Source of the DNA: Nymphaea colorata
Taxonomy: Eukaryota > Streptophyta > Magnoliopsida > Nymphaeales > Nymphaeaceae
Reading direction: 5' to 3'
DNA: 64,000 bases
Assembly (NCBI RefSeq): GCF_008831285.2
Contig: NC_045145.1
Location: forward strand, 2,046,001 to 2,110,000
Positions 11,980-40,645 of this stretch are shown here, one piece after another. The notes beneath the pieces are model-generated. The model made no database searches, was not told the origin of the DNA, and worked only from the letters and a program-made list of their open reading frames with translations. The number at the start of each line of letters is the position of its first letter. The first letter of the stretch is position 1. The position numbers and the translations under genes were made by a program.

Positions 11980-13361
11980 TTAATTGCTTTCCAGGAGAGG
12001 AACCATGGCATTCCCAAAACCAGATCGACTCCTTCCAAGGGGATCACGAGGAAGTCGATTGAGAAAGCCCTCTTGTTCAGAACGACCTCCATGCCTTGCC
12101 CTTCGTGTAGACACTTTAGGCGATAGCCCCCTCCCACGATGATCGTTTGGGGCTTGCTAGATTGGAGCACGATATTGCATCGTTTGGCGGCTTCCTCTGT
12201 AAGGAAGTTGTTGGTGGCGCCACTATCCAGCAGTATTAGCACTTTGTGTCCGTTGATTCTGCCAAACACCCGCATGACATTTGGCTTGTGAGGGTCGGTC
12301 ATGGAGTGAAGAGACTCATCCTCGTCTTCTTTGGTTTCAGACTTGGGGGCCTCTTCTTTTTCTCTATTCTTGGTTCGCCTCTTGGTGTCCATCTCCTCTT
12401 CGGATGAGGAGCTGGAGCTAGCGTCCGTATCACTAGAGGAATCGTCTTTGGAATGAGATCCACTCTCACTATCGCTGAGCACACGAATCCTGTTGTGGGA
12501 TTTACATTGGTGGTTCTTATCCCACTTTTCCTCACACATGAAGCACAATCCTTTGCGCCTGTATTCCTCCATTTGTTTGGGTGTGAGGTATCTAGTTGGA
12601 GGACCTCTGCCCGATTTAGGTGTTTGATTCATTCCTTTTTCTCCAGGCTTATAATCTATCCCCTTTTGGTAGGGAGTCTCCTCGTTACTTCTAAAACGAG
12701 AAGCAGAAGATTGCGAGGGTTTCTTCCTCTGCTTATCAAACTTGCGTGCCTTCTTCATAGCACGCCTCTCCTCTATGCGTTCTTCATAGTTACGCGCCAT
12801 GGCAAAACATTCTTCTAAACTTTCGAAGCGTTGTACCTTCATTTCAAGCTTAACCTCTTGTTTTAGTCCACCCTTGAAGGCGACGATGAGGGCCTTCTCG
12901 GACCACTGTACCATGCTTGCAAGCCTTTCAAATTGCTTCTGGTAGGCCTGCACCGTGGTAGTTTGGACCAAATTCTTAAGGTCCTCGTCGTAATCTATAA
13001 AGGTGGAGTCGCCAAATCTCAATTGGAGGCTCTTCTTGAATTGCTCCCAGGTTGGATCGTATGTCTTGTGGACGAACCATAAATAGAAGCTTGTGGCTTC
13101 TCCTATCATCTTGGCTGCCGCGGTTTCTATCCACTCATCCCTAGGAACTCGATGGCACACAAAGTAACGCTCTGCCATAAACATCCACTCCCTCAGTTGT
13201 TCCCCGTTGAACTTTGGGAACTCATATCGGACTGTGGGTGTCCGTCTATCATCATGTCGGGGGTGTCTTTTCATTTCTCTTTCTCTGGTGAGGAGACTCT
13301 TCCTCTTCCTCAGAATCATAGTAGGTCTGATTCTGACTAGAGTTAGCGAATCTTTGCACAC
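11667..13361 (-). CDS. gag-pro: Gag (capsid, CCHC nucleocapsid) and aspartic protease
   Basis: A 564-codon frame. A retrotransposon Gag domain lies at about residues 45-190 (FPKFNGE ... WEQFKKSL ... RFESLEECF) and would form the particle shell. A zinc knuckle, CFMCEEKWDKNHQC (about 273-286), of the C-x2-C-x7-H-x-C type seen in chromoviruses, would bind genomic RNA. Next comes an acidic serine-rich stretch (about 296-325), then a retroviral-type aspartic protease with LLDSGATNN (about 377-385). Homology ends near residue 473, where the correct continuation moves to the pol frame (near 11940). The first about 35 residues are likewise out of frame with true Gag. The N-terminal part lies in the overlapping frame 13252-13872, and the switch is at a run of five G (13259-13263, plus strand). 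Confidence 0.87.
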   Translation of the reverse strand: MCKDSLTLVRIRPTMILRKRKSLLTREREMKRHPRHDDRRTPTVRYEFPKFNGEQLREWMFMAERYFVCHRVPRDEWIETAAAKMIGEATSFYLWFVHKTYDPTWEQFKKSLQLRFGDSTFIDYDEDLKNLVQTTTVQAYQKQFERLASMVQWSEKALIVAFKGGLKQEVKLEMKVQRFESLEECFAMARNYEERIEERRAMKKARKFDKQRKKPSQSSASRFRSNEETPYQKGIDYKPGEKGMNQTPKSGRGPPTRYLTPKQMEEYRRKGLCFMCEEKWDKNHQCKSHNRIRVLSDSESGSHSKDDSSSDTDASSSSSSEEEMDTKRRTKNREKEEAPKSETKEDEDESLHSMTDPHKPNVMRVFGRINGHKVLILLDSGATNNFLTEEAAKRCNIVLQSSKPQTIIVGGGYRLKCLHEGQGMEVVLNKRAFSIDFLVIPLEGVDLVLGMPWFLSWKAINWDVKRITMTFTPREKRNRLSCKDLWAIHNLRLLKDALTTSSQHVGSLLLQQMCQGRIKSKKNLYQPQYIKFWMDFPRSLMNLRACLQSGPTIIESSLHREQSL

Positions 13362-13872
13362 GCGTTGAGGCTCGATGGTGATCTTCTATGGGAGGCCGGA
13401 ATGTGGGTCCAGTTTGAGGAGGTCCTGGGGGCCCCATTCTGTTATTTCGGGCCCCGTCCATGCTGGTGCCTACGTGAGACACCCGTGGATCTACTTCATT
13501 GTCCGTGAAGTAGTTAGGATGGCCGCCAGCGACACCTTTTCCCTTGTCGCGCCCTGTTTGAGTCCGGCCTTGGGTGACGGCCTCTTGTTGTGGGTTTATG
13601 GAGGCGCTTAGGAGCCTAAACATACTCCTAAACTCGTCCATGTCCCGCTGCCTCGCCGAGTCTTGGCGTTCCATCTCGGTCCTATGGATGGAATCCTGCC
13701 TGTCCATATCGCGACGCATCCGTATGAGTTCTTTTTCTATATGCGTCATCCGCCCGACCATGGGGTCTTGAAGCTCGACGGATTCGGCTTTGGCCGGCTC
13801 TTCATGGGGTTGGGGAACCTCTTCGAGGACGGCGTTCTCCTCCAGGGCCAGTTGCTTCTTGGATTTACCCAT
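13252..13872 (-). CDS. gag: N-terminal part of Gag, frame-shifted from the rest
   Basis: Starting at the ATG at 13872 (MGKSKKQLA), which I prefer to the one 12 codons upstream because the charged Gag-like segment begins there, this frame encodes a helical, highly charged region (IEKELIRMRRDMDRQD, likely coiled coil). A Gly/Pro-rich linker and an acidic stretch (DSEEEEE) follow. It stops just after 13263. Removing one base of the five-base G run at 13259-13263 would make it continuous with the 11667-13361 frame, so both are probably one gag gene split by a one-base insertion or an assembly error. Confidence 0.75.
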   Translation of the reverse strand: MGKSKKQLALEENAVLEEVPQPHEEPAKAESVELQDPMVGRMTHIEKELIRMRRDMDRQDSIHRTEMERQDSARQRDMDEFRSMFRLLSASINPQQEAVTQGRTQTGRDKGKGVAGGHPNYFTDNEVDPRVSHVGTSMDGARNNRMGPPGPPQTGPTFRPPIEDHHRASTRVQRFANSSQNQTYYDSEEEEESPHQRKRNEKTPPT

Positions 13873-13908
13873 TGGTAAGACTTGGGCAGAAAATTTCCAA
13901 GGCAACAC

Positions 13909-14400
13909 GATGAAAAGAAGACAAAAAACCTAAGTACACTGAATCCAAAAGAAATCAAACACTGCCACTCTCAAAATCCAAGAACTGACTACTGCCACTC
14001 TCAAAGGAAAGTCTAAACCGCCCACACGCTGCTGCTGCCCGTGTGTTCGTAAGCAAGGGAGACGGGTTGGCCCGCCTACTGCCGCACTCTTCTAGTGCCT
14101 CGGCAGTCCCGCTTCACTCTCGGCCGAGCTCAAAGAGCCTAAATCACCACACCCGCCTGGTGTCTCGGTGACGCACCTCGAGTTTGGCTACCCTCGGGAG
14201 CACAGTGTGTACTGCCCTAGACTTGCTAAAGGGAAGCAAGCCTAGCCGAGAACAATAGCGGAAGTCCCAGAAAACCAGAAAACGGAAAAGAGAATACCAC
14301 TGCTGAATCTGAATCTGCTAGAAAAACCCGACTGTAAGCTGCCCTCTGACGTTGAATCTTCTTGGTCCAAGTGCTTACGAAGTCCGGTTTATCCTCAACA
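13909..14400 (-). other. Element 1 untranslated leader
   Basis: This lies between the primer-binding site and gag on the minus strand. I see no conserved coding frame. It is expected to hold packaging signals of the genomic RNA, but none can be identified from this sequence alone. Confidence 0.6.
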
Positions 14401-14414: not shown

Positions 14415-17051
14415 ATTGTTAGGTACTACCCGGGTCGACTAGTTAGACCGAACCGAAGCAGCCCTAAGTTCCCAAGACCTTCTTGAGGAGCAATTTAAAA
14501 ACCCAAAATCCTAAACAAATTATACAGTTGTCTACCCGGCCGGACAGGACCACGGCACAAACCCGATGGATAAAGGAGTACAAGTATGGCTGGTATCCCA
14601 AATCCTAACTAGGATAACCTACTACAACAAACTAGAATGGGTGAGAGGCCGTACAAGTGCGAGCGATACAGAATAAACACTCTCAACTCACTCAGCAAAC
14701 CACACCAAACCACAACTAACGAGCAAACCACACCCGAGCCCAGTAGGTAGGTCAAGTCCTTTAGCGGGCATGTTGTCGGCACTTGTGCCTTTGAGGTACC
14801 GCCGTGGGGACGTGGGACAGAGCCCGGGCTAAAGCAAAACTGAAAGCAAACTAAATGCAATCCTAAAGCATAAAGCAAGAAGACCCGCCCGTGCTACAAG
14901 GGGGAGGAAGGGTGTTACTAGCCACGACGGACTTGGCTCAGCCGAAGGAAGGACCCGGGGAGAAACCACAGCCCCCGGGTATTGAAGCTCACAGAACAGA
15001 AGACCACTTGAGTTGTGCCTCCACGAAGCCTGGTGCTGGCAGAAAGACGCCTGGCCGAGGAAGACGCTACCGCAGATCGTGCTGCAGTCGGCCGCAAATG
15101 CGGGTCGCAGATGCGCAAGGGCGGCCAGAGTCGCTGTCACCTGAACGGAGTAGCCGCTCGCTGCGAAGGATGGATGCAGACTGAGTGGCCACAGGCTGGA
15201 GCGCCCTGCTGGAGGCACCGGTTGGGAGTGCTGCTTCGTGCGCGACCGCCTATCGCGATAGCACTGTCGGAGCACGCCTGGGCGACGAGGGGGGCTAAAG
15301 CCGCGAGAGGGCTAGCTAGGTGGGGTCAAGGACTTGCTGGTCAAGCCAAGGTGAGCGCCGGATTCTTGCCACGTGGCAAGATCAAGGGCTGACAGCGATC
15401 ACGCTAGAGAGGAATCTAGCGACAAGGATAAGATTGGATTCCCTCTCCTATCGTCTAGGAAGGAAATCACACAAGGGAGGGAGATTCGGGTGAGGTGGCT
15501 CAGGGATCTCTCTCGAGATTTCGAAGTGGAGGGAGATGCCGACATGTGGTTTGAGGAAGGACCAGGAAGGAAAGCGGGATCTGGCTGGAGGGAATGAGGA
15601 AATGCGAGTGAGACGAATCAGGAAACAAATGAGGACGCGGGATGGAGTTGCCGATTTGGTAGGGAGAAAACGCGGGGCGGTGGATCCTTGACGCGTCTTG
15701 CTGAGGTGGTGCCCACGTGGAGGAGTCGTTGGACCAGGTGGGATGCGAGGAGGATCTCGGAGGGGGGGTGACGTGGCAGTGAGGGAGGACATGATCCAAA
15801 CACGTGGAGTGATGGACGGATGAGGATGGCTGCGGCTAGGGTTGGCGAGAGAGGAAAAGGCTACGAATTAGGCAAGAGGATTCACGCGGCTTGAGCGAGA
15901 TTCCTCAAATGCAGCTGCGTGATCCAAGGGATCTCGACCTGGGACGAGGAACTCGGGGACTGACACGTGGCAAGGGTGATCAGGATCCTAAGCTAGGATG
16001 TTGACACGTAAGTGAGATGGACGGCTGAGAGGGACTTACCTTCGAGATCACGTCCACGAAGAAGACTCGCGCAAGGGGCCGGCGGCTAGGGTTCCACGTG
16101 CGGATCCAGATGACCATGTTGCCCTTCGTTTCTGCTTCGGGGCTTTGACTGGCGTGAGGGCAGAAACGTCTTTGAGCACCAGGACTAATGGAGGTCACCG
16201 GAAATAGCAGCAGCGACCGGACTCGTCCAGAATTCCGACGGTACGCCGGCATCGCTTCACAAGGTCGGATCGCGCCCAAATTTAGGTATTTTGTTCTTCG
16301 GGCTAGGGGATTTCAATGGTATTGCTTCTGAAGTGATTTCCCGGCAGGACCTTTGGATTCGAGGGGCTGGGAGCATGCTGGAACGTACTTGTAGCAGGGC
16401 AACCGAGGGAACCAAGGAAGCAATTAGACCCCCTTTGCACACCCAATGCTTGGATTTGGCCTAGGCCGCAACCGAGAGAAGGAAAGAAGTCTCGGATAAG
16501 GAGAGGGTTGTTCCGAGGGAGGGACACTGTGGGACTGATCAAAACTAGCACTCGGGTATGCCGAGCACACGCCTTGGTCCGTGGGTGAGGTGCCCAATGC
16601 CAACAACTCAATCCTTAATCGAATTCTCGCCTAAAGTCGGAGTACTAACCTGTTAGCCATCCTGTTGAAGTCTGGATTACAGCCTTCAACCTTCCCAATG
16701 CTCGGATCAGCCTTTCAACTCCTCCGTGGTCGAGGAGATGGCACCGGTCCAAGCTTGATTACGCTCTTGAGGGGAACTTTGCCGTGGTCACGTAGGGAGG
16801 AACACCGCCGATTAGGAGGGCCTGCCGTGCATCTTTACTGCCTTGAGCCTTCGTCTACGGGGACGCCGGATCTCCAAGGGACACTAGAACGTCACAAGGG
16901 AAGGGGACGCGAGGGGGGAGAAGACGGATTCTCGTCCTTGGGGTTGAGAATGCGGGAGAGTAGAGAGACACCTCGAGAGAGGAGAGAGAGCCGAACTTCA
17001 CAAATGAAATCTTCTATTGTCAAAAAGCATCCTTTACACTAAGATCCAAAA

Positions 17052-17062
17052 TTATATATACT
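17052..17062 (-). promoter_or_regulatory. Putative TATA box of the element 1 5' LTR
   Basis: 'tatatataat' on the minus strand, about 640 bases inside the LTR's upstream end. It is the counterpart of 4594-4603 and 8315-8324 and the best candidate promoter for the gag-pol RNA. Confidence 0.6.
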
Positions 17063-17401
17063 AACCTTGGTTGGACTGGGTCACAAGTTCGACCGGTTCC
17101 ACTAAGCCCAAACCCACTTTACAATAGAGCTTAATTCTGCCTCTTATTGAAATGAAATACCCCTACTTCGAAACCCAATGGTGTGGAGCACAACCCCGCT
17201 CCAATAGGTGCGCGCTAAGTCAAATCACGCAAGCCAAAAAAATGCCTAAGTGTAAACAAAACCGAATTAAACACCTAGTCTAAGCCGCCCCTGAGCCTTG
17301 CGAGCCCAGGGTGGGGACCTCGTGCGGGGAACTGCCCGCACTTCGGAATTGGGTCAAGGGCTGGTCTAGTTGACCAAGCCATTCGTCTAAGACTTGAGTT
17401 C

Positions 17402-17705
17402 TTAGACTGCCTCAAGGGCCTCAAGCGAAGGATCTGCGTTAGGTTTAGTCGTTCCTAGTTCGGGGAATCCTACAACTAATACCGGAGCAACTTGAGGATC
17501 GGCCTCACTTCTTTCGCACTTGGACCTGGTTGCGCCACCCTCTCCACCCTCTGCAACTGTCGTAAGTGCTTCTTCAGCCTCCCTGGGATATGCAATGAGC
17601 TTCTGTAGGGATTGAGTCCAGAGCTCTGACGCTTTGCGCTTCCTCTGGCTGGGCTCGCCCTGCTCAGGCTTGCGTGAGTCCGGACCTTCACCTAGGCCCG
17701 TAACA
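17402..17705 (-). other. LTR copy of the pol tail coding sequence (element 1 5' LTR)
   Basis: About 100 codons remain open here in the frame that forms the pol C terminus in the 3' LTR, with only a few substitutions. Features are an EPEQGEPSQRKRK basic patch, VAEGGEGGATRSKC and VLVVGFPELG. In a 5' LTR this copy is probably not translated as part of pol. It is kept because both LTRs are copied from one template. No function is known to me. Confidence 0.7.
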
Positions 17706-23563: not shown

Positions 23564-23573
23564 CATTATATAC
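23564..23573 (-). promoter_or_regulatory. Putative TATA box of family C LTR
   Basis: The minus strand reads gtatataatg between the tail-coding part and the rest of the LTR, as in family A. Confidence 0.5.
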
Positions 23574-23891
23574 AAGTTTTACTTGGATCGGGTCACATGA
23601 ATTGACCTGTAACTCCAGCCAAAACACGATTAAAATTGGAGCTTAAACCCGCTCCTATTTACATGCGAAATACCCAATCCAAAATCCAAATGCATTGTGG
23701 AGCACAATCCTGCTCCACTAGGTTCAAACCAAATCCAAAACGTAAAGCTGAAATAAATGCCTAAGTAATTAAACCGGCCCTGAGCCTTGCAAGCCCAGGG
23801 TGGGGACCTCGTGCGGGGACCCGCCTGCACTTCTGATTTGGAACAAGGGCTTGGTCTGAATGACCTAGCCATTTGCCTAAGATTCGGAGAC

Positions 23892-24195
23892 TTAGACTAC
23901 CTCAAGGGACTCGGATACTGGACTCGCGCTGGGTTCAGATTTTCCTAGTTCGGGGAGTCCTACAACTAGCACAGATGAGTCTTGAGGATCTGCGAACTCG
24001 CGCGCGCACTTGGACCTGGTTGCTCCGCTCGCTTCACCCACTGCAACTGGATCAAGTGCTGCTTCAACCTCCCTGGGACATACGAGTAGTTTCTGAAGAG
24101 AATGAGCCCATAAATCTGATGCCTTACGCTTCTTGCGACTGGGCTCACCCTGCTCGGGCTCAGATGCATCCGGGCCTCTACTTGGGCCCGTAACA
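23892..24195 (-). other. Conserved protein tail encoded in family C LTR
   Basis: The family C LTR keeps about 100 open codons collinear with the element 1 pol tail. Shared patches are TG...EPEQGEPS, RKASDLW, SLQKLL, GATRSKC and VLVVGLPELG. Many synonymous and conservative changes separate it from family A without a stop, which suggests coding constraint in the ancestors. It begins at the LTR edge in the same phase (Val-Thr-Gly). Confidence 0.65.
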
Positions 24196-26145: not shown

Positions 26146-29100
26146 TGTTAGGACCCAGACCCGGCGTTGTCCAAGACCTCTGCCGGATGTCGATCCTCTC
26201 CCAAGATCTCTCGGAGGAGCCGTCGGACAAAACCAAAAACAAATTACTTACAATAAAGAAACCCGGCCAGACAGGACCCCGGCGCAAAATACCCTAGGTA
26301 GCGGTACAAGTATAGGTAACCCAAAAACCTAACTAAGGCAAACCTATTACAAAAGACTAAGTGGGTGTGAGGCCGTACAAAGCGCATTCGATACAAGATT
26401 AAAACACTCACAACTCACTCAACAAACCACACCAAACCACAACTAACGTGCAAACCATGCCCATTCCCAAATAGGAAGTTCACGCTCCCGGTGGTCGTGT
26501 CTTCGGCGCTTGCGCCTCCGAGGTACCACGAATAAGAGCTAAGGCCGAAGCCGGGCTAAGCAATAAACAAAGCAAACTAGATGCTTCCTAAATGCAAAAA
26601 CAAGAACTACCACCCCGATAGCTACAAGGGGGAGAAGAACACGATACCAGCCAAGAAGGATCTTGGCTATGCCAGATAAGTCACCATGGGGAGATAACCC
26701 AGCCCCGGGTATCGCAGTTCATGGTAGGAAGACCCCTTGAAGTGAGCCTCCATGGTTATGCTGCTCCAAGGAAGAACGCCGGCTGAATAGGCGCGGGAGG
26801 AAGCAGCCACCTGCTGCCTTGTGCCGAGAGAAGGGCGACCGCCTGTCACTAGAGATGCGGCCTAGGGTGCCGCCGGTAGTGTTGAGGGGGGCTGGAGCCA
26901 AAGATGGCAACGCCTACCTGCCTTCACCTTGCGTGGCTCAGCCACGTTTGTCGGAAGAGAGCCGACGTTAGAGAAGAAGGCCGAGAGAGGAGGCCGGATG
27001 AGCTAGCGAGAAGACTAGCCTAGCCGGCTAGACCTAGACCTAGCTAAGGCTCGGGTGGGCTAGGAACGGATGGGCTCTATAGCTGGGTCGGTCCGGTCAT
27101 GATGGGTTAGTGCTGAGGTAGGCTAGGGCGTAATGTGGATTAGGTGGGGTAGAGGGTGCCTAACTACAAGGTAGGTCTTGGCGGGTCGGGCATGGGTAGA
27201 GCCTAAACTCGGGTAATGGTCTAAGTCGACCAAGTGTGGAGGAGGGTTGACTAGTAGGTTAGGTTTGACTAAGTGGACCAAGTTTAGGAGGTCCGGGTGA
27301 CTAGGTCAAGGTGGGACCTACGAGGTAGGCTCGGGGAGTCTAGAGTTTAAACTTTAAGGAATGGAAGGGAGTAAGGGGGCGGCGGCTTAGGAAGTTACCT
27401 AAGATTGCTAGGGAAGGAAGATGTTGGTTTAGGGCAAGGATCGAATGAGGTGGGATTTCCTAAGTGATAGGGTGAGGTGGCACATGCGAGGTGATCCTAA
27501 CGGGACGGAAAGAGGGGCTGGGCTGGTGTTGCCTAGAATAGCGCCAAGGGGATCCTCGTGATCCAAGAGAATCGCTAAGGGAGATAGCGATGAGGAAGGG
27601 AAGATCCAAACCTTTCCTAAAATGAAGGAGGTAGGATCGACAAGATTGAGAGGGATTTGGGCATGGGCCCACTTGATGCTATCTATCTCTCTCAAGGGAC
27701 CAGGTGGTGACACGTGGGGGGTGATGAGGCAAACTCGGCTGAGGTGGAAACACACGATTTAGACATGTGTACTAGATGGAGGGCTTAGGCAAGAAGCGGC
27801 TAGGGTTAGGTCAAGTGAAAAATATGCCAAAATGGAAAGAAGGTGGCTCGCCGCGTGGCAGACATATGGAGACACGTCGGACCTAGGTGATGATGTGGTG
27901 GATGACTTGGCGGGTGAGGTGGCACATGATATGGGAGATGGCGACACGTGGACAGATGGAAGGATGCAGTCCAAGGTGGGACTTAGGGTTGACAGAAGAA
28001 AAGTATACCAAAAAGGAAACAAGTGGGACGCGGCCAGGGCTCTACAGGCTGTCCTGTTTCTGGCAAACTTTCACTGGTCAAATGAAGTCTGATCACCGTG
28101 ATTTTTGGATATGTTGCATCTGGGATCGAGACGATTCCAACGGTACCAAGAACTCCTTGAAAGTCTTGACGGATCGCCGAGAAATGACCTCCGATCAGAC
28201 CGGTCTGCTGCTGGTTGCGACAGAACGATAACAACGATACAGAGCTGTTTCGCTGTAGATTTGGGTACCCAAATGATCTCGGACCATAATGAAATTTTAA
28301 CAGAAGATAGCTGACCTTAAGGCGAATTCAACGGCATATTGCACGCATTGAAACTCTGAGGGAATCTCCAGATTCAGATCAAAGAACAGCAACCAGTTTC
28401 TGGAAACGACAGAATCGCGGCTGCAGAATGTGTTCTGTTCCTGCTCTGATTTGACCAACCAAACGAACTCTGATCACCACCAAATTTGGGTATGTTGTAG
28501 AGGACATAAAGCGATTCCAACGGTATATAGATCTTCCTCTAACTCTCAGTAGATCTTTAGATATGGCTGTTTGAACAGGCAGATGTTCTGGAATTCCGCC
28601 TGTCGCGCGCGACCGAGAACGTGAAAGAGCCGACAGTGGAAAACTAGCTCCTTTCTTCCTTTTCACCGTCCGAACTTCTTCAAAAATGGCTTGATGGCCG
28701 TCGATATTGAAGGCGCTGCCGTCTTCAACGTTCCCGGTGTAAGATCGGCCTCTCAACTTCTTTGTGGGTGAGAAGAAGGCACCGAAACTTACTTGGATCT
28801 TTGCACAAAGGGGGGGAATAAACCGTGGCCAGTGGGGACTCTACCGCCGGAGCTAGGGAGCAGCTTTAACCTTTCTTCCTTGAGCCTTTACCTAAGAGGA
28901 CGCCGGTTCTCCAAGGGATTTCAAAAATCGCCGCGGGATCAAGGGAGCGTGAAGGGGGAGAAGACACTTTCAACTCACTCGGGAGAGAAGGTGGGAGACG
29001 AGAGGGAGAAACCTCGAGAGAGGAGTGAGAGACAAATCTCACAAATGAGCTTATTCCATAATGTATGCCTAGGGTTTCACGCTCTAGAGAATATATATAA

Positions 29101-29672
29101 GGGAGATGTCTCAGTTCTCTTACTCCTAACCCGAGACGGTACAAAGAACACTAAGCAAAACGAGTCTAAGCGTCTCAAACCGAGGTGGTACAAAACAACT
29201 AAAACAAGAGTACCTAAAAGAAAAGGGCGTATGGATCCAAACACGTTCCGCCCGCTCGAGTGTGTCCCAGACTTGTGGGTCCGAGTATAACTTGCCTAGG
29301 TTCGCCCTAAGCTGCTCCGTGGCTTGTTTGAGGTCTCGACACCTTGCTTTGGTCTGGCCTAAACCGGGTCCTGGTCCACTGTCATGCTGGTCTTCAATCT
29401 CTGAACTCGGTCCAAGCCCTGTTTCCCCCTTTTCGACCGTAGCTGCTCCGCCCGCTCCTCCCACTGCATCCACATAAGTAATGCTCGAAGGGTCTACAAG
29501 TGTCAAACCCTGAACCATGCCAAGGTTAACCTCACAAGAGAAAGAGGGTGTAGGCTTGTCAGGCGGTAATCGACGTGCCCAGCTACACCCTACACCGCTG
29601 GTCGGCTCCAATCCATTGCTCTTGGCCATGCCCTCGGCAGTCCTCAACGGTGCCAAAATTAGGCACGTATCA
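26146..29672 (-). repeat. 3' LTR of non-autonomous element 2
   Basis: It begins TGTTAGGACCC and ends GCACGTATCA, next to a polypurine tract. It matches 38117-40645 closely, except that the latter lacks about 1 kb (about 26961-27943 here). Near its start it has the same 'cggacaggaccccggcgc' block as family A. Within it, two related segments (about 28060-28200 and 28420-28560) look like an old internal duplication. The last about 546 bases are an open frame continuous with the internal region. Confidence 0.85.
29091..29100 (-). promoter_or_regulatory. Putative TATA box of element 2 3' LTR
   Basis: The minus strand reads ttatatatat. The same motif lies at the matching place in the other LTR (about 40066-40075). 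Confidence 0.5.
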
Positions 29673-30165
29673 GATCCACTCTCCTTACATCGAGCTTGAC
29701 CCCAAGCTTGTGCCATGATGTCTCCATGGGTGACCAGTATTGCTCCAACCAACTCTCCCACGCACTCATGCATGTGATTGGGTCCATAATCTTGAGGTAA
29801 GTGCTCTAGGGAGTTCCTCTGAAGAGAGAACCATTGCCTCGGTCCTCTAGTATACACCCACAAGTTGGCTCCCGTCCTTCTTTCTCCAACTAATATGCGG
29901 CCATCTTGTTTTTGCTTTGGGCCATAGTCCCGAGGTATAAGGCCAAGTAGTGACCTTTGCTGCCCAAGAACATACTTGGGCTCTTGCGGGTTCTCCATCT
30001 CCATGCGTGGTTTGCCCCTATCATGGGCCTGCCATATGCGACCTTTTCTTGGGCTCTCATGTTGGCCCATGAAGAGTAACCGTGGACCTATAGTAGCATC
30101 CACTACCAGCCATGCTTCGGCTGCACCAACAATTCCCAGATCCTGTGTAAGGGGCGAGTGAGTAG
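29126..30165 (-). CDS. Element 2 third frame, crossing PPT into the LTR; unknown function
   Basis: From the copia insertion point down to 29126 the minus strand is open for about 345 codons. The internal part is rich in Arg, Gly and Gln, and has two similar segments, LIPRDYGP and HLPQDYGP, each followed by a Leu-Val-Gly, which may be a short internal repeat. It then reads through the PPT into the LTR for about 182 codons, including VDAVGGAGGAATV, a motif like the pol tail of element 1. The frame extends rightward into the copia LTR (to 30403), but that part is accidental. In the uninterrupted element it would follow the 35467-36549 frame in the -1 frame. I recognise no domain. Confidence 0.5.
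29673..29687 (-). promoter_or_regulatory. Polypurine tract of element 2
   Basis: The minus strand reads taaggagagtggatc directly before the LTR, as expected for the plus-strand primer. It is translated within the third coding frame of element 2. Confidence 0.8.
30161..30165. repeat. Left target-site duplication of copia element
   Basis: 'agtag' directly before the LTR, repeated at 35444-35448 directly after the other LTR. The perfect 5-bp duplication shows this copia copy inserted here as a unit. Confidence 0.92.
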
Positions 30166-30550
30166 TGTGAAGACACCAGATGACACATGGCAGAAAGTAT
30201 GCAACGGCCAAATCAAAGAGGACAAACTCAACGACTATATCAGCAAAGGCAATGGGCATGACACAAGGCATGACAAAAGGAAAGAAGTATGCAACGATCA
30301 AATCAAGAAGGGAAAACTCAACGCCTATACCAGCAAAGGAAGACACACCCAATTCCATAAGGAAGGAATTAACGTCAATGGTGTATTCCAAAAATATAAT
30401 CATAGACCCGTTGAGATCTGTACATCTATAAAAGCATAATGGAACCTCAACTCAGCAAGTAGCTGTGATTGAGAGAAGAGGACGTAGGTTTATACTGAAC
30501 CTCTATAAACACCTATTTCAAAATATCTCTCTATTCTCTTGTCTTTAACA
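30166..30550 (+). repeat. 5' LTR of copia element
   Basis: TGTGAAGAC...TTTAACA. A TATA box (tataaaa) lies at 30427-30433. Its first 180 bases contain two similar copies, about 90 bp apart, of a segment beginning agtatgcaac (30196 and 30286). That is a possible duplicated U3 control region. Confidence 0.92.
30427..30433 (+). promoter_or_regulatory. TATA box of copia 5' LTR
   Basis: 'tataaaa' about 120 bases before the LTR end, also present in the 3' LTR at 35319-35325. Confidence 0.65.
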
Positions 30551-30563
30551 TGGTATCAGAGCC
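30551..30563 (+). promoter_or_regulatory. Primer-binding site of copia element
   Basis: tggtatcagagcc starts at the first base after the 5' LTR and matches the 3' end of initiator methionine tRNA. Confidence 0.92.
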
Positions 30564-30914
30564 ACCTTTGCGCAAAGGAAATTTCTGCGAGAGACTGGAT
30601 ACAATTCTGCAGCAGGACGGGAGGTCTTGTTAATTCCGAAACAGAGTTTTTTTTTTTTAGGCAGAGTACTGGAAAACCTGTTGCGGTTTTCCCTAGGGTT
30701 ACCAGCTCTGGCGACGATAGGTGTCGACCAAGAGCTCTCTGGATTCATTTGTCTCTGAAGATCCTTTACACCAATTTTGAGAATTTTTTGCATTGGTGTT
30801 AAGGCGTTATGGTTTTTTTGAACGTCTGCCTGTCCCTGGCAGGCGTCTTCCTCTATTTCTCCCCTGCTGCCATCACCGTGTGCTCCTCTTTATAAGTTGT
30901 CTTGTGTTGAGATC

Positions 30915-33900
30915 ATGGCATCGCCTAACTCATCTGCAACATGCGATTCGCCTCAAGACGCTGCTCTATTGAATAACCTGCTACCGATTGCACCTGCGCC
31001 AACCAGTCTACAACATCTATTGGCTGTAAAACTCACCTCTGATAACTATATGTTATGGGAAAATCAGCTGCAGCCTCTCCTCGTCTCATACAATCTGAAG
31101 GGCTTTGTTGATGGAACCAGGACTCGTCCACCTGAGACAATCCTCAGTGAAGGTAAGGAAGTCCTCAACCCTGCTTATATTGAATGGTTGCGAATGGATC
31201 AATTGTTACTTGGATGGATCATTTCATCTCTTTCGGAACCTGTTCATTCTCAAGTAGTGGGATTAAGATGATCCTATGAAGTCTGGACAAGATTGAAAAA
31301 CACCTATGCGGTCATTCTAGATCTAAGGTGATGCAATTGCGAGAACAACTTACTGTCTTAAAGAAAGGGACGAACAATATTGATGAACTCATACAAAAGG
31401 CAACGATGCTTGGTCATCAATTATCCATGGCTGGAAAACCTGTGGCTGAAGATGATTTAGTCTTGCATATCTTAAGAGCACTCCCACAGGAATACAATTC
31501 TTTTAAGACATCTATAGCCACTAGATCTGATCCATTGTCTCTAACCGATCTCTATAGTATGTTGTTAACACATGAATCACAGCTGAAAGAAACAAAGATT
31601 GATACTTGGTCCAACCGTCAATTTCTTACACAAGAACAGTCCCTCTTATAGTCATCCAAAAATCAGTACTAGGTAAAACAACCGTGGAGGAGGAGGGGGC
31701 TCTTACAAGCAAAACAGAAATCGGGTGGTTTGTCAATACTGTGATAAACCAAGCCATTCAGCCAAGATGTGCTTCAAGATTACCAAAAATGGAGGCAAAC
31801 AACAATCAAATCATACTGCCAATAAAGATATTTCTCCACCTCGTGCTCTTTATGCTTCTCATGCAGGAATAAATGATGCAATGTGGTATCCGGATTCCGG
31901 AGCCACACACCATGTGACAAATGATCTGAACGCATTATCTGAGCATGTCCGTTATGAAGTGAAGGAAAGGGTGCATGTAGGAAATGGCACAGGTCTGCAC
32001 ATTCTTAACCATGGTTCCTCTTATTTTACAAAAAATGATTCCAGATTCTTACTTAAGGACATATTACATGTTCCTCACATTACTAAATATTTGATTTCTG
32101 TTCATAAATTTACCAATGACAATAATGTTATTATGGAATTTTACCTTCATGTTTGTATTGTGAGGGATCTGAAGACAAGGAGTGAACTCTTTCGAGCACC
32201 AAGTCAAAATGGCCTTTACTGTTTTAAATTTGATGATGTAGGATGCAATAAGTTGAACGCAAGCAATAAGGACGTCTTCCTTGGAGAAAGAACGTTGGTT
32301 GATCAATGGCATAGTCGTCTAGGACATGCCACCTATCGTGTGGTTCAGCAAGTTATTAGTCGTTTTGGATTACCTTCATATGGACATTTTAAACCTCATG
32401 TGTGCATTGACTGCCTACGGGGAAAGTTTCATGTTTTACCATTCAGTACTTCAACTCATACTATTTCTAAGCCTCTTGATTTAATTTACTCTAATGTGTG
32501 GGGTCCTACTCCTATTCTAAGCTTTGATAGATTCAAATATTATGTTCACTTTATTGATGCTCACACGAAGTTCACGTGGATATATTTCTTAAATCAAAAA
32601 TCTGATGTCGTGGCTGCATTTTCTGATTTCAAAAACAAAGCTGAAAACCTTTTTGAAAGGAAAATCAAATGTTTTCAATCTGATGGAGGTGGTGAGTTCA
32701 CAACACTCAAACCAATTATTGATACTGCAGGAATATCCCATCGTGTTTCATGCCCTCACACACATGAAAAAAATGGTGCCGCTGAACGCAAACACATGCA
32801 TAGAGTTGAAACAGGCTTATGTCTTTTAAGTCACGCTCATATGCCTCAAAAATTCTGGTCTTGTGCTTTTGCCACTGTTGTATATTTGATCAATAGGTTA
32901 CCCTCTCATATTACTGGCCATAATAGCCCTTTTGAAATACTCCATGGCCTTGAACCGGATTTCAAATTCCTTAAAATTTTTGGCTGCGCGTGTTATCCCA
33001 ACCTTCGGCCTTACTGCCAAAATAAACTTGATTTCAAAACCAAGGAACATGTTTTTGTCGGGTATAGTAGCAAACACAAGGGATACCTATGTTTGAACAA
33101 AAAGGCGAACAAAATTCTTATCTCTCGAAATGTGATTTTTGATGAACATAAATTTCCATTCCAAAATGTTTCCAACGAGTCTGATTTAAAATCGTTCTCC
33201 ACCTCCCAAACTCATACTCCTCTACTCATTCCCATTACCTCGTCCTATATTCCTCCTTCACCAGCCATAGTTCTTCCCCCCTCTAGTGATAACCATGATG
33301 AAAGACGTGATCAGCCCACTAATCGTTCAGACGTGATCCCAACCAACTCAGACCCGTCTCAAGCTGCATCTCTCCCATCACCCATTCTTGCACCTTCGTC
33401 TTCACTTATCCCTGTCCAAACTGCCTCTCCTGCCCGTACTCACACTATGACCACTCGCTCCATGAACAGCCTCAAAATACCCAAGGTTCTCACATCTATT
33501 GTCCATCCTATACCTGTTGCTTTTCTCACTCAATCTCTAGATCTTCTTGAACCAACATCTTACACCAAAGCCAAATCCTACCCCCACTGGGTTCAAGCGA
33601 TAAGCACTGAATATAACACTCTTCTTAACAACCATACTTGGACCCTTGTTCATCGACCTGCCAACGAAAACATTGTAGGGTGCAAATGGATATTCAAAGT
33701 CAAAAGGAAAGCCGATGGCTCTCTGGAACGCTACAAGGCACGTCTTGTAGCCAAGGGCTACACGCAAGAAGAAGGTGTAGACTATTTTGACACCTTCAGT
33801 CCTGTGGTCAAACCCACCACCATTAGAACAATCTTAACTCTTGCGGTGACTTTTAAGTGGGTTGTGCATCAACTTGACATCCATAATGCTTTTCTCAATG

Positions 33901-35087
33901 GTGAGCTACAGGAAAACGGTCTTTATGGATCAACCACCCGGCTTCGAACAGCAGCCTAATTTCATTTGCAAGCTTCAAAAGGCGATCTATGGTCTCAAAC
34001 AAGCTCCTCGAGCTTGGTATCAAAAACTTAGCCACGCCTTGGTAAGCAATGTGGTTTTTCTATCTCCAAAACTGACACCTCCCTTTTTATTTCTCAACAG
34101 GGGTCTAGTGTGGTATATGTATTAGTGTATGTCGATGACATACTAGTCACTGGAAATTCTCCTCACCACATCGACAAATTGGTCAAATATCTAAGCACAA
34201 CCTTTGCTTTAAAAGATCTTGGACTGCTCCACTATTTTCTTGGCATCAATGTCTGTCACTCTGCCGGGGCCTCCTTTTATCTCAACAACAATATTGCCTG
34301 GACCTTCTCAAACGAGCCAACATGGTTGGCGTCAAACCAGCCCCCTCGCCTATGTCGACCTCACAAAATCTCTCCCAAGGCACCGACGTAGCATATCACA
34401 ACCCTACTGAATACCGACAGGTGGTCGGAGCTCTGCAATATCTAACATTAACACGACCAGACTTAGCATTTCCAGTAAACAAAGTCTGTCAATTCATGCA
34501 CAGACCCACTCAAGAGCATTGGACGGCAGTCAAAAGGATACTTCGTTATGTCAAAGGCACCATTCACTTTGGACTATTGATACGGCCATCAACCAGTCTA
34601 CATCTAAACACCTACTCTGATGCAGATTGGGCTGGGTGCCCGATGACCGTAAATCCACAGGGGGATATGCTGTATTCTTGGGGCCCAATATCATCTCTTG
34701 GAGCTCCAAAAAGCAACACACTGTTGCTCGCTCAAGTTCAGAAGCGGAATACAGGGCCGTTGCAAATGCCACTGCAGAACTCATATGGGTTCAGTATCTC
34801 CTACAAGAGCTTCACATCCCCATCCCATCTACTCCAATTCTCTGGTGTGACAATATCAGTGCAACCTATATGGCGGCTCACCCAGTTTTCCATAGTCGAA
34901 GCAAACACATTGAACTTGATGTTCACTTTGTTCGCGACCGCATTGCCAAAAACCAACTGCTAGTTAAACATACTCCTTCCTCCCATCAACTAGCCGATAT
35001 TCTCACCAAACCGCTGCCCATCACTCCCTTCCAAACTCTTCGTTCCAAACTCAACGTCATTCCTGGCCCGTTGAGTTTGCAGGGGGA
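30915..35087 (+). pseudogene. Copia gag-pol polyprotein, multiply broken
   Basis: Gag starts at ATG 30915 (MASPNSS). A TGA stops it at 31269-31271 and a frame change follows near 31315. The frame 31725-33959 carries the zinc knuckle CQYCDKPSHSAKMC, protease DSGATHH, the integrase zinc region (WHSRLGH ... CIDC), the integrase core and the start of RT (LVAKGYTQEEGVDY). The first integrase catalytic Asp is Asn (SNVWGP, codon 32493-32495); SDGGGEF and NGAAERKH remain. RT continues in other frames, with YVDD at 34128-34139, then RNase H (SDADWAG, SSSEAEYRA). Frame breaks are near 33915, 34050, 34300 and 34645. It cannot make a working polyprotein. Confidence 0.93.
35077..35087 (+). promoter_or_regulatory. 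Polypurine tract of copia element
   Basis: ttgcaggggga ends at the base before the 3' LTR, a typical copia PPT. Confidence 0.8.
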
Positions 35088-35443
35088 TGTGAAGACACCA
35101 GATGACACAAGGCAGAAAGTATGCAATGGCCAAATCAAAGAGGACAAACTCAACGACTATATCAGCAAAGGCAATGGGCATGACACAAGGCATGACAAAA
35201 GGAAAGAAGTATGCAACGATCAAATCAAGAAGGGAAAACTCAACGCCTATACCAGCAAAGGAAGACACACCGGTGTATTCTAAAAATATAATCATAGACC
35301 CGTTGAGATCTGTACATCTATAAAAGCATAATGGAACCTCAACTCGGCAAGTAGCTGTGATTGAGAGAAGAGGACGTAGGTTTATACCGAACCTCTATAA
35401 ACACTTATTTCAAAATCTCTCTCTATTCTCTTGTCTTGTTACA
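35088..35443 (+). repeat. 3' LTR of copia element
   Basis: Same ends as the 5' LTR, but it lacks 31 bases found there (gap near 35268). It is followed by the target-site copy agtag (35444-35448). Confidence 0.92.
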
Positions 35444-35466
35444 AGTAGATCCCGGAATTTGGATCT

Positions 35467-36549
35467 CTAGGGACTAGATGATCCTTCAATCTCTGTAGCA
35501 TAGTCCTCTAGACTGGGGGTATTGGATCTCTTCCAAGGCATGGGAAAGAGATCCTCTTTCTCATTGTGGCCCGGTTCCTTCGTGGCCATCCTTCTGTGAG
35601 CATGGGATATGTTAACTTCTTTTTGGAGTAGCTCACGAATGGCTGCCCTCTGTAGGTTGCTCCTCACATCTTCCTTAACACTACCACCCTCCTTAGGCTT
35701 TGCCTTACCCTTAGGAGTGAGAGGCTGTAGTGATAATGGTGCACTTGGGGCACGTTCAACTTGTGTGGAAGGCACAAGTTGTTTGTCCTCTTCGATGTAT
35801 TCGAGTGGTCCCGTGACATGATTCTTAGGGACTGCGCATGAGGACTCGGGGATCCTTTCTTCCTTGAGGACTATAAGGGGCTCTTCAACATAGCCATGGG
35901 TGGTACCGAGTTTGAGCTCGTCTCGTAGCTGGCATCGTATCACTTCAATGTCATCGTCAGGCTTGATGCTCTCAAGAGGTGCGAGCCCATTCTCTCCATT
36001 CAAGCTCTTGGTAGTTTCGGCCAGAGCTTGACACATTGTTACCTTCTCATCCATCTTGGGCTGTATAGTGCCAAATTTCCCAACATTTTCCTCCATAGGC
36101 TTTGGTTGGGCACTTGGTATCGTCCTCTTTGGATTGACTACCACTTTAGGAGTTGGAGTGTTGTCACGTGTAATCGAGGTAGGGCAAGACGCCAAGTGTG
36201 TTTTCCCATGATCAGATCTGGGCCTTGCAAGAATGCCTTTGTTGGCATAGGCACTCCGATAAGCCTTAGTGTTTCCCATTTTGCTTGGAGGTGGCTGAGG
36301 TAATATACCCATGGTCTTATCTTCACGGCTTATGCTTATGTTGCCTTTGGGAAAGGGTGGACTAGGAGTCCCGAGGATTTCTTTCCTTTTGTCACCTTGT
36401 ACATCTTGGCCTTGGGCCATGGTCTTCAATTGACTAACTTCTTTAGTTAAGGCTATTTTACCATAAATCAATGCCCTATACATTTCCCTGATTTCATTCA
36501 TTACTGGCCCACGATACGCCTCACTTGGTGAATCTGAACTTTTACCATC
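35467..36549 (-). CDS. Element 2 frame downstream of the FHA-like part; unknown function
   Basis: Same reading frame as 36550-37041, separated only by one TAA (36550-36552). The first Met is 16 codons after that stop (36501), giving 344 residues. A short helical stretch (MNEIREMYRAL ... ALTKEVSQL) comes first, then a long Pro-, Lys- and Ser-rich, probably disordered region with many Lys-Pro pairs, and a charged C terminus (ATKEPGHNEKEDL). There is no zinc knuckle and no protease or RT motif. It stands where gag stands in autonomous elements and may be a Gag substitute or an accessory protein. I do not recognise a family. Confidence 0.55.
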   Translation of the reverse strand, partial: DGKSSDSPSEAYRGPVMNEIREMYRALIYGKIALTKEVSQLKTMAQGQDVQGDKRKEILGTPSPPFPKGNISISREDKTMGILPQPPPSKMGNTKAYRSAYANKGILARPRSDHGKTHLASCPTSITRDNTPTPKVVVNPKRTIPSAQPKPMEENVGKFGTIQPKMDEKVTMCQALAETTKSLNGENGLAPLESIKPDDDIEVIRCQLRDELKLGTTHGYVEEPLIVLKEERIPESSCAVPKNHVTGPLEYIEEDKQLVPSTQVERAPSAPLSLQPLTPKGKAKPKEGGSVKEDVRSNLQRAAIRELLQKEVNISHAHRRMATKEPGHNEKEDLFPMPWKRSNTPSLEDYATEIEGSSSP

Positions 36550-37041
36550 TTAACTTGACGAGTCTGAGTCACTGCTCTGATTGTTAGATTCAGAGAAGGT
36601 TTCCTCTTCATCTTCACTTTCGTCACTTAGCTCCACACAAGGTTCTTTTTGCTCCTTGGCAACAAAAGAGGGTTTTTCCTCCAACACAAAGCATTGGTGC
36701 AAAGACCCAACTTGGATAGCTTTCCCATGGTAGATTCGCACCCATTGCTGAGATCTCGTCTCAAGTCCAGCCACAATAAGTCTACCCGTGTAAGTGGTAT
36801 TGGCGATCCAGATTGCTTGGGTATTTTTATCTATGGCTAACTTAAAATGATGCCCTATTATGCTAGGGTGTCGGAACTTCAAATCACATTCAGGATCACT
36901 ACCGGCCGTGATATACATCCATCTTGGACCTTGGTCCATGTCATCCCCTCGGATCAATAGGGTGTCCTTCATGAATCCTCCGTTCAGGTAGGTGCTCAAA
37001 AATATATCCATTTTCTCAAGACGGGCACCCACATCCACCAT
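36550..37041 (-). CDS. FHA-like domain protein of non-autonomous element 2
   Basis: 163 residues from ATG 37041, first frame after the PBS and leader. Residues about 42-123 follow the forkhead-associated (phosphothreonine-binding) pattern in order: GSDPECDL (47-54) where FHA has G-R-x-x-x-C-D, PSIIGHHF (59-66) for the S-x-x-H strand, IANTTYTGRLIVAG (79-92) for the Asn-Gly turn, HGKAIQVG (105-112) and CFVLEE at the last strand. The Arg of the first motif is Ser and the Asn of the turn is Tyr, both normally phosphate or peptide contacts, so binding may be changed or lost. The tail (135-163) is acidic and serine-rich, like casein kinase 2 sites. FHA identity is my inference from motif order. A structure-based search is needed. 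Confidence 0.62.
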   Translation of the reverse strand: MVDVGARLEKMDIFLSTYLNGGFMKDTLLIRGDDMDQGPRWMYITAGSDPECDLKFRHPSIIGHHFKLAIDKNTQAIWIANTTYTGRLIVAGLETRSQQWVRIYHGKAIQVGSLHQCFVLEEKPSFVAKEQKEPCVELSDESEDEEETFSESNNQSSDSDSSS

Positions 37042-38100
37042 CTACTCTACCGAAGTAAAGTGCTGAACAACTACTACTGCAGAAGAAAACACTGAAAACT
37101 GATGAAATCAACTAACTATGCTGACACAAAATTACGTAGAAGACTGCTCTGCTCAAATCTGTCAAAGAGAATACCAAGGTGCTGCGATTTCTGGAGTAGT
37201 GGTAGAGATTTTTCAGAAAACTGGTTCCACTTGTAAAATCAATATCTTTCTAACCAGATATCTAAAAATCATGAAATTTGGTGGTAAAATACTAGACCCA
37301 ATAAGGAATCCAACGCCACCAAATTTAGCCTCTAACTCATTTCCAGTGCTGCAATCGTTTTTCTGAAAGTCACACCTGGACAGGTTCTGTTCAGACGCTG
37401 CCTGTTGCAAATTGCGCAGGAAACTCTCCAGTGACAGGGGCCCACTCAAAAATTCATAACTTTTGATCCGTAACTCCAAAAATTCTGAAATTTGAACTGG
37501 AGATTCTCAATACATAGGAGCTTCTAACAAGCCTATGCCCCACCAATTCTGACGTCGGAGCTGACAGAGCTGGCCACCGGAATCCGGTGAAAAGTCTGTT
37601 TTCACAGGATCAGAAATCTGTGGGTTGTTGATATGGAAATTTGTAATCTGAGTCGCTCAACGAACTTCTTTCCGCACCAACTTTGGACAATAATAAGAGA
37701 GGATATTTATCTAACTATCCTCCGAAATCCAGCTCAATCTGACCTCGGGAAGCCTCTGAACCAACTAGATTTTCCTGGCAGAATGCTATCCAGACAGGTT
37801 CTGTCCGCTCAGGCTATCGGTCTGGTGTAGGGCAAAGATCACAGAGATTTCGGAAGAATCTCGCCAGATGCCCTATACGACTTTTGAAGCACAAATACTT
37901 ACGAAGCTCCCCACCAATTTTCGGGCTAATCCGACTAAGTTTGCCCTTAGAAATCACCAATTTACTCTTCCTGACTGTGACAGTCCAGAAACCGCAAGTT
38001 GTCTTCTACTGCTACTCAGAATTCGGAAATCAAAATATACTGAAATCAACTACTAACTTCAACTGAAACATGCAGAAAACCACTGGCTGGAACTCCGATC
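37042..38100 (-). other. Element 2 untranslated leader
   Basis: About 1 kb between PBS and the first coding frame. It has no long open frame on the minus strand. Repeated short phrases such as 'ccaccaa.ttt' and 'ctgttc' resemble those in the LTR at 28060-28560, so part of it may share origin with the LTR repeats. Confidence 0.5.
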
Positions 38101-38114
38101 TCGCTCTGATACCA
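38101..38114 (-). promoter_or_regulatory. Primer-binding site of element 2
   Basis: The minus strand reads tggtatcagagcga two bases from the LTR, the same initiator-Met tRNA type and the same spacing as in element 1. Confidence 0.88.
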
Positions 38115-38116
38115 AT

Positions 38117-40645
38117 TGTTAGGACCCAGACCCGGCGTCGTCCAAGACCTCTGCCAGATGTCGATCCTCTCCCAAGATCTCTCGGAGGAGCCGTCGGACA
38201 AAACCAAAAACAAATTACTTACAATAAAGAAACCCGGCCGGACAAGACCCCGGCGCAAAATACCCTAGGTAGCGGTACAAGTATAGGTAACCCAAAAATC
38301 TAACTAAGGCAAACCTTCTACAAAAGACTAAGTGGGTGTGAGGCCGTACAAAGCGCGTTTGATACAAAATTAAAACACTCACAACTCACTCAACAAACCA
38401 CACCAAACCACAACTAACTTGCAAACCACGCCCGTTCCTAAATAGAAAGGTCACGCTCCCGATGGTCGTGTCTTCGGCGCTTGCGCCTCCGAGGTACCAT
38501 GAATAAGAGCTAAGGCCGAAGCCGGGCTAAACAATAAACAAAGCAAACTAGATGCTTCCTAAATGCAAAAACAAGAACTACCACCCCGATAGCTACAAAG
38601 GGGAGAAGAACACGATACCATCCAAGAAGGATCTTGGCTATGCCGGATAAGTTACCGCGGGGAGATAACCCAGCCCCGAGTATCGCAGCTCACGATACGG
38701 AAGATCCCTTGAAGTGAGCCTCCACGGTTATGCTGCTCCAAGAAAGAACGCCGGCTGAATAGGCGCGGGAGGGGGCAGCCACCTGCTGCCTTGTGCCGAG
38801 AGAAGGGCGACCGCCTGTCGCTAGAGATGCGGCCTAGGGTGCCGCCGGTATTGCCGAGGGGGGCTGGAGACAAAGTTGGCAACGCCTACCTGCCTTCGCC
38901 TTGCGTGGCTCAGCCACGTTCGTCGGAAGAGAGCCGACAGTAGATGACGACACGTGGACAGATGGAAGGACGCAGGCCAAGGTGGGACTTAGGGTTGACA
39001 GAAGAAAAGTATACCAAAAAGGAAACAAGTGGGACGCGGCCAGGGCTCTACACATAGTCCTGTTTCTGACAAACTTTGACCGGCCAAATGAAGTCCGATC
39101 ACCATGATTTTTGGATATGTTGTAGCTGGGATCGAGATGATTCCAACGGTACCAAGAACTCCTTCAAACTTGCTACGAATCACCGGGAAATGACCTCCGA
39201 TCAGACCGGTCTGCTGCTGGTTGCGAAAGAACGACGACAGCGATACAGAGCTGTTTTGCCGTAGATTTGGGTACCCAAATGATCTCGGACCTTAAGACGA
39301 ATCCAACGGCATATTGCACGCATTGAAACTCTCAGGGAATCTCCAGATTCAGATCAACGAACAGCAACCATTTTCTAGAAACGACAGAATCGCGGCCGCG
39401 GAATGTGTTCTGTTCCTGCTCTGATTTGACCAACCAAACGAACTCTAATCCCGCCAAATTTGGGTATGTTATAGAGGACGTCAAGACGATTCCAACGGTA
39501 TATAGATCGTCCTCTAACTCTCGGTAGATCTTTAGATATGGCTGTTTGAACAGGCGGATGTTCTGGCATTCCGCCTGTCGCGCGCGACCGAGAACGTGAA
39601 AGAGCCGACGGTGGAAAACTTGCTCCTTTCTTCCTTTTCACCGTCCGAACTTCTTCAAAAATGGCTTGATAGCCGTTGATATTGAAGACGCTGCCGTCTT
39701 CAACCTTCCCGGTGTAAGATCGGCCTCTCAACTTCTTTGTGGGTGAGAAGAAGGCACCGAAACTTACTTGGATCTTTACATGAAGGGGGGATAAGCCGTG
39801 GCCAGTGGGAACTCTACCGCCGGAGCTAGGGAGCTGCCTTAACATTTCTTCCTTGAGCCTTTGCCTAAGAGGATGCCGGTTCTCCAAGGGATTTTGAAAA
39901 TTGCCGCGGGATCAAGGGGGCGTGAAGGGGGAGAAGACACTTTCAACTCACTCGGGAGGGAAGGTGGGAGACGAGAGGGAGAAACCTCGAGAGAGGAGAG
40001 AGAGACAAATCTCACAAATGAGCTTATTCCATAATGCATGCCTAGGGTTTCATGCCCTAGAGAATATATATAAGAGAGATGTCTCGGTTCTCTTACTTCT
40101 AACCCGAGACGGTACAAAGAACAATAAGCAAAACGAGTCTAAGCGTCTCAAACCGAGGTGGTACAAAAGAACTAAAACAAGAGTACTTAAAAGAAAAGGG
40201 CATATGGATCCAAACACGTTCCGCCCGCTCGAGTGTGTCCCGGACTTGTGGGTCCGAGTATAACTTGCCTAGGTTCGCCCTAAGCTGCTCTGTGGCTTGT
40301 TTGACGTCTCGACACCTTGCTTTGGTCTGGCCTAAACCGGGTCCTGGTCCACTGTCATGCTGGTCTTCAATCTCTAAACTCGGTCCAAGCCCTGTTTCCC
40401 CCTTTTCGACCGTAGCTGCTCCACCCGCTCCTCCCACTGCAGCCACATAAGTAATGCTCGAAGGGTCTACAAGTGTCAAACCCTGAACCATGCCAAGGTT
40501 AACCTCACAAGAGAAAGAGGGTGTAGGCTTGTCAAGCAGTAATCGACGTGCCCAGCTACACCCTACACCACTGGTCGGCTCCAATCCATTGCTCTTGGCC
40601 ATGCCCTCGGCAGTCCTCAACGGTGCCAAAATTAGGCACGTATCA
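38117..40645 (-). repeat. 5' LTR of element 2
   Basis: TGTTAGGACCC...GCACGTATCA. It is near-identical to 26146-29672 where both are present, but about 1 kb is missing at about 38940 (counterpart of 26961-27943). The open frame at the upstream end (40099-40629) is conserved between the two copies. It ends against a family B fragment with no matching target site. Confidence 0.85.

Follow-up and report, generated by a model that had tools for sequence, protein, structure and literature searches.

A predicted FHA domain heads the single open reading frame of a non-autonomous LTR retrotransposon family in Nymphaea colorata

We analysed a stretch of 64,000 nucleotides of Nymphaea colorata DNA, here called the window, in which a 163-residue frame had been predicted from the letters alone to encode an FHA-like domain carried by a non-autonomous LTR retrotransposon. 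The frame sits inside a 14.5-kb LTR element (26146-40645, minus strand) whose two LTRs match piecewise at 91-95% identity. The parts of this element, in its own reading direction, are as follows.

38117..40645, minus strand: 5' LTR, with ends TGATACG...CCTAACA, from self-comparison
38103..38114, minus strand: primer binding site (PBS) TGGTATCAGAGC
37042..38102, minus strand: leader of ~1 kb, from the PBS to the FHA start codon
36550..37041, minus strand: 163-aa open frame, stop included, forming the N-terminal stretch of the only ORF in the element
36706..36909, minus strand: predicted FHA domain core, residues 45-112 (Pfam PF00498, E 4.8e-5)
36553..36627, minus strand: acidic Ser-rich tail, C-terminal of the FHA domain
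35470..36549, minus strand: continuation of the ORF past the stop, a 360-codon frame
30166..35443, plus strand: nested Copia element interrupting the FHA ORF, from its LTR pair, Copia pol domains and borders
29129..30165, minus strand: C-terminal part of the FHA ORF, entering the 3' LTR (frame 29129-30451; tblastn with the frames of the C6, C10, C321 and C3b copies)
29666..29707, minus strand: in-frame AWGQARCKESGSDT at the border of polypurine tract and LTR, resembling the pol end of an autonomous element (hhalign)
26146..29672, minus strand: 3' LTR, with an insertion at about 26967-27935

The 163-aa frame opens with ATG, is read from 37041 to 36550 on the minus strand and contains all five motifs quoted in the original prediction; the plus strand across 36550..37041 is interrupted by stops. 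The predicted frame is real, but the full protein has ~870 aa, of which these residues are the first 163. In the window the ORF is broken by the stop after codon 163, by a further stop at about 35467 and by the nested Copia, which is bordered on both sides by the target duplication AGTAG. In the C6 copy, the FHA part and the counterpart of the window's post-stop sequence share one frame. The flanks of the window FHA element match in two of five bases, with no visible target duplication. Paired LTRs, a PBS that we take to be of the initiator-Met type, and scanned frames free of gag and pol domains bear out the prediction of a non-autonomous LTR element with such a PBS; Pfam found nothing in the element's remaining window frames.

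Homology at several levels identifies the domain. The profile search that had been proposed for the 163-aa protein returned Pfam FHA (PF00498), scoring 24.2 bits where the gathering threshold is 20.7. We assembled 41 diverse rows from the window and 40 relatives, all from the N. colorata genome itself: 69 loci held FHA sequence (L002-L030, L040-L079), four of them with stops, and 40 of the 65 rows obtained were retained, near copies and some partial rows being dropped. Pfam FHA was matched at E<=0.1 by 40 of the 41 rows (best E 2.5e-8). Searched alone against PDB, the window protein gave weak matches (CHFR at E 1.5). With the 41-row profile, E<=10 was reached by 26 different sequences in the PDB, including the uncharacterized protein 2n84 (6.5e-5), Ki-67 (1.7e-4), Arabidopsis DDL (1.4e-3) and CHFR (1.6e-3), with NIPP1, RAD53 and others further down; nearly all are FHA proteins, an exception being OCRL-1 (E 0.58). 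On this homology we conclude that the frame at 37041-36550 encodes, by sequence, an FHA domain, as had been claimed.

The ligand pocket is degenerate across the family. Of the residues that we take to form the phosphothreonine pocket (Arg, Ser, His and Asn), Arg is retained in 11 of 41 rows, His in 38 of 41, and Asn, at alignment column 85, in two of 41; Ser three residues before the His (H-3) occurs in none of the 41. The original prediction correctly noted substitutions of the key Arg and Asn, and the pocket Ser is replaced as well. Because so little of the pocket Arg and none of the Ser is retained, classical phosphothreonine binding by the element's FHA may have been lost. Gly, His and hydrophobic positions are conserved in the family despite the degenerate pocket.

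Relatives elsewhere in the genome carry the whole ORF. Frames unbroken from stop to stop span 867 codons in C6, 877 in C3b, 872 in C321 and 880 in C10; a 3917-codon frame at C321 was rejected as an artefact of masked N. The ORF occupies the entire internal region in C6 and C3b, and it extends well into the 3' LTR in the window copy and C6. In Pfam scans of the C6, C3b and C321 frames there was no match to gag, protease, RT or integrase, and FHA alone stood above noise; the scan of the C10 frame covered the parts outside its middle. C6 is flanked by a perfect 5-bp target duplication, GACGG, and the repeat borders of C3b are without TG/CA. Towards its C-terminus, the C6 ORF also holds an internal duplication of ~85 codons (L034, 8128-8643).

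Within the 407.8-Mb genome we found at least 150 family matches at E<=0.001, with identities between 100% and about 28%. Scoring covered 150 of the 174 candidates, and a single copy can contribute several matches. A genome-wide search with Pfam FHA gave 149 matches, about three quarters of which belong by eye to the FHA-element family. A search for the same frame next to an initiator-Met-type PBS had also been proposed, and in this genome it succeeded: in 26 of the 29 top copies with flanks, a PBS with at most one mismatch precedes the FHA start by 713-1091 bp, compared with 0/29 in the antisense control. In C10 (L080), the LTRs around the 880-codon frame share 99.74% identity across a minimum of 2337 bp, and the FHA is 36% identical to that of the window; C10 and the window copy are two deep lineages sharing one plan. 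Another lineage, L081, shows this order in a shorter and decayed element, whose LTRs share about 91% identity.

Two structural variants were observed among the copies. Many FHA elements carry two PBS-like sequences (at most one mismatch) 128-169 bp apart upstream of the FHA frame. These doubled copies (L011, L013-L018, L027, L030, L080), most of which stand behind a similar LTR-like end, are a duplicated priming site. At L036 (C3:29153000-29162990), a pair of FHA units spaced by about 6.16 kb, and 99.7% identical over 5.57 kb, forms a tandem array.

We compared substitution rates across the rows to assess selection on the ORF. Over the FHA codons the median dN/dS was 0.36, with all 115 usable pairs below 1 (usable meaning dS between 0.05 and 1; 115 of 820 pairs from the 41 rows), and shifted-frame controls over the same region gave 0.92 and 0.97. 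Among longer frames (13 of 18 loci, those with frames >380 aa), dN/dS was 0.39 for the FHA (68 pairs), 0.46 for the linker (42) and 0.45 for the middle (43), where 93% of the 43 pairs were below 1. All 40 of the loci L040-L079 had been chosen from stop-free matches, which biases dN/dS towards unbroken copies. Judged from these codons, and from a sample that leans to unbroken copies, the FHA is under purifying selection.

The window also contains an autonomous Ty3/gypsy element that is a candidate helper for the FHA element, with these features.

14417..17705, minus strand: 5' LTR of the candidate helper
8668..13929, minus strand: gag-pol of the autonomous Ty3/gypsy element, with capsid, protease, RT, RNase H and integrase
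12387..12476, minus strand: acidic Ser/Thr tract in the helper Gag, after a Cys/His-rich stretch, as read from the frame

The helper's PBS lies at 14403. In the last 600 bp up to the PBS, the FHA element is 72% identical to the helper (640 columns); the LTR-end alignment has a Smith-Waterman (SW) score of 302, against a shuffle maximum of 33 and a Copia control of 27. At its other end, the C-terminus of the FHA ORF resembles the end of the helper's pol, where that frame crosses the polypurine tract and enters the LTR (RAWGQAxFKEGGSDT, RARGQAQFREGESVTG). For this border between pol end and LTR, hhalign gave E 3.8e-4 with a probability of only 36%, compared with control E values of 0.37 and 0.13; the C-termini of five copies scored SW 54-86 against the pol C-terminus, with shuffle means of 36-39 and scores of 33-42 against another part of pol. 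The likeness of both LTR end and pol end to the helper argues that the FHA element probably descends from a gypsy element of this sort, its end kept in frame. The helper's chromodomain is weak and degenerate (13.1 bits, cut-off 25.1), and the Ty3/gypsy descent is perhaps of chromovirus type. The LTR end of C10 hardly resembles the window helper (SW 32, shuffle maximum 29), so lineages of the FHA element may differ in their helpers.

We also considered LPRDYGP repeats in the FHA ORF as remnants of the GPY/F motif of integrase. Their region scored 54 in C10, 56 in C6 and 57 in the window, with 11, 5 and 0 of 500 shuffles as high. Pfam found no GPY/F-type domain, hhalign picked solely the border of pol end and LTR, and we regard the repeats as suggestive only.

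The nearest host relative of the domain, among those compared, is a gene that joins FHA to a PIN domain. This gene (L101, on C1; PIN_4 E 2.4e-12) has the architecture of PARALLEL SPINDLE 1-like proteins (PMC3071787), and its FHA is apparently split by an intron, as judged from its frames. It was the best of seven compared host FHA sequences for all 29 element and intermediate rows, the seven being a subset of host FHA genes in which some are partial exons and so handicapped, L100 was read from L101, and host status other than that of L101 was assigned by exclusion. The window FHA matched it at 52.0 bits and 23% identity (next host sequence, 14.6 bits); across the retro rows, identity to it is 23-37%. 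In a quick tree, 25 retro rows and L095 fell on one side (SH-aLRT 98), and three more canonical intermediate rows fell on the host side. The tree drew seven host and four intermediate rows (L084, L086, L091, L095) from 18 fetched FHA stretches, L084 and L086 being read from L102 and L103; L085, L089, L093, L094, L097, L098 and L099, with stops, partial or unused, stood outside it.

The original prediction had allowed for either a captured or a convergent host domain. Because the FHA-PIN gene is the best of the seven for 29/29 rows, capture of a host domain appears more likely than convergence, which we disfavour. The retro FHA copies are without the intron in the domain, which suggests capture through spliced RNA. 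At the intermediate loci L102 and L103, a PBS search found none.

A more canonical FHA unit, with GRHPDCD and SSTYGT kept, lies at L102 and L104 (C11:10202000-10214500). It has a sub-threshold protease-like match (E 0.0038) and is followed by a decayed gypsy gag-pol. In this decayed copy, the one repeat that links the units is about 190 bp long. It could be an older FHA element beside, or once joined with, gag-pol, and was considered as a possible autonomous FHA element; a search for its PBS at up to two mismatches found none.

We propose that this is a non-autonomous, Ty3/gypsy-derived family that would have lost gag and the enzymes and carry a single ORF of ~870 codons instead. This ORF begins with the FHA, continues through a middle that is acidic and of low complexity, and closes with a pol-end-like C-terminus that would still hold the polypurine tract and the LTR start in frame. 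The FHA would have been captured long ago from a host FHA-PIN (PARALLEL SPINDLE 1-like) gene, probably via spliced RNA. With PBS, polypurine tract and LTR ends kept, copying and insertion could be supplied in trans by the gag, RT and integrase of a sister element. The protein might act as an adaptor, its FHA binding a protein of the helper's particle or integration complex, so that the parasite's RNA or complex would be favoured; a conceivable ligand is the helper Gag, through its acidic Ser/Thr tract. The original prediction had suggested that the domain could tether the element's RNA, Gag or preintegration complex to phosphorylated host or helper proteins. What we observed is the anatomy of the element, its FHA homology by sequence, the family, selection on the frame, the LTR homology to the helper and the nearest of the host genes compared; mobilisation in trans, capture via RNA, ligand and function are what we infer from this arrangement. 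We consider the account as a whole, a helper-dependent gypsy derivative with a captured FHA-PIN-type FHA and an adaptor protein, reasonably probable; the adaptor role, taken by itself, is the most likely working of the FHA module and is put forward tentatively.

Other readings were weighed against the same evidence. The captured FHA might face the host instead, binding the partners of a PARALLEL SPINDLE 1-like protein in meiosis or RNA decay and so protecting the element's RNA or aiding germline transmission. The FHA-PIN gene is indeed the nearest host FHA compared, and the FHA and PINc of such proteins are tied to the orientation of the meiotic spindle and to putative decay of RNA (PMC3071787); however, the retro FHAs mostly lack the Arg and all lack the Ser that are conserved in the plant genes presented there, and with just 23-37% identity to the host gene we think this mimicry unlikely. 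The protein could also be a structural substitute, a Gag-like or nucleic-acid-binding particle protein in which the FHA is a ligand-free fold for assembly or dimerisation. Purifying selection on linker and middle alike, and the conserved Gly, His and hydrophobic positions around a degenerate pocket, speak for such a role, but a CCHC zinc knuckle is absent from the four frames and the scanned frames gave no Gag-family match; we consider it improbable. Quite unlikely, though the most far-reaching, is a combination in which a meiotic FHA of PARALLEL SPINDLE 1 type was captured, its pocket rebuilt and many divergent versions kept in one genome, as a changeable adaptor that hijacks different helpers or the meiotic or RNA-decay machinery: in effect, FHA domains would set the specificity between parasite and helper.

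Two further explanations remain to be set against our preferred account of a helper-dependent element. The domain may be a functionless captured host fragment, copied because it lies between LTRs. Some copies do have stops in the FHA frame (four of 29 in one set, others elsewhere), and stop-bearing copies were excluded from the dN/dS pairs; the median of 0.36 with every usable pair below 1, against shifted frames near 1, nevertheless largely contradicts a passenger, as does the same ORF plan in a 36%-identical lineage with young LTRs, and we hold this reading to be very unlikely. Chance resemblance to FHA might be argued from the single-sequence AlphaFold model of the window protein, a poor one (pLDDT 42, about ten strands), and from the frame scan, in which scores of 18.7 bits for the C6 fragment and 17.4 bits for the C3b frame fell under the Pfam cut-off. 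Both sites exceed the cut-off in the genome-wide search (25.5 and 22.7 bits, respectively), and with the PDB profile matches, 40 of 41 rows positive and the host FHA-PIN match for 29/29 rows, coincidence is hardly credible.

LARDs and BARE-2-type parasites have long LTRs, are non-autonomous and are presumed to be mobilised by relatives; LARDs are described as without coding capacity. The FHA family resembles both in its long LTRs and its non-autonomy. Unlike LARDs, it keeps an ORF of ~870 codons that appears selected, and frames of 867-880 codons in four copies do not fit "no coding capacity". Del/Tekay chromoviruses, too, have an initiator-Met PBS. Their long LTRs (PMC4029996) are another feature shared with the FHA element, which, unlike them, is without gag-pol. 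The element also differs from PARALLEL SPINDLE 1-like FHA-PINc proteins: it has FHA only, with no PIN match, an intronless domain and a degenerate pocket. The host FHA-PIN gene, in an alignment read by eye, has His at the site of the usual Asn, as is reported for most plant PSL genes (PMC3071787).

Captured domains in non-autonomous LTR elements are a known kind. In Phalaenopsis, Ty3/gypsy elements carry a 2-ODD (AlkB) domain (PMC9289625), a comparable case of a plant gypsy lineage that fixed an extra host-type domain. There, the domain is an additional ORF in large elements identified by RT, whereas in the FHA element, without gag and pol, it heads the sole ORF. That screen of 121 angiosperm genomes used RT as its marker, so RT-less elements would be missed; FHA is absent from its main text. 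Extra ORFs of plant LTR elements mostly follow pol and precede the 3' LTR in gag-pol elements, in the sections consulted of PMC7264820; the FHA element shares with these an extra conserved ORF of unknown function, and there is no FHA among the cases discussed in those sections. Protein database searches with the window protein and the family alignment, and a scan of viral contigs, found no relative in collections that we judge largely non-plant, and no FHA-bearing LTR element was found in the open-licence literature by titles and the beginnings of abstracts. As far as could be checked, the novelty lies in FHA as the domain, in the depth of the family and in a single ORF that is under selection.

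The FHA family has, across divergent lineages, one protein under apparent selection, with no enzyme found and a captured signalling-type domain at its head. Non-autonomous LTR elements are usually regarded as passive cargo; this family would make it testable whether a parasite element encodes a trans-acting factor that competes for the helper. It also points to a class of captured domains invisible to RT-anchored surveys.

Further LTR-element sequence lies elsewhere in the window. A 3.7-kb direct repeat, 94% identical, occupies 1516-8974 in the region of the helper LTR as tandem LTR-like copies, and 20984-25222 holds additional LTR fragments, which are related to the FHA element as well as to the helper. 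A second, different Ty3/gypsy pol lies on the minus strand at 48731-51967.
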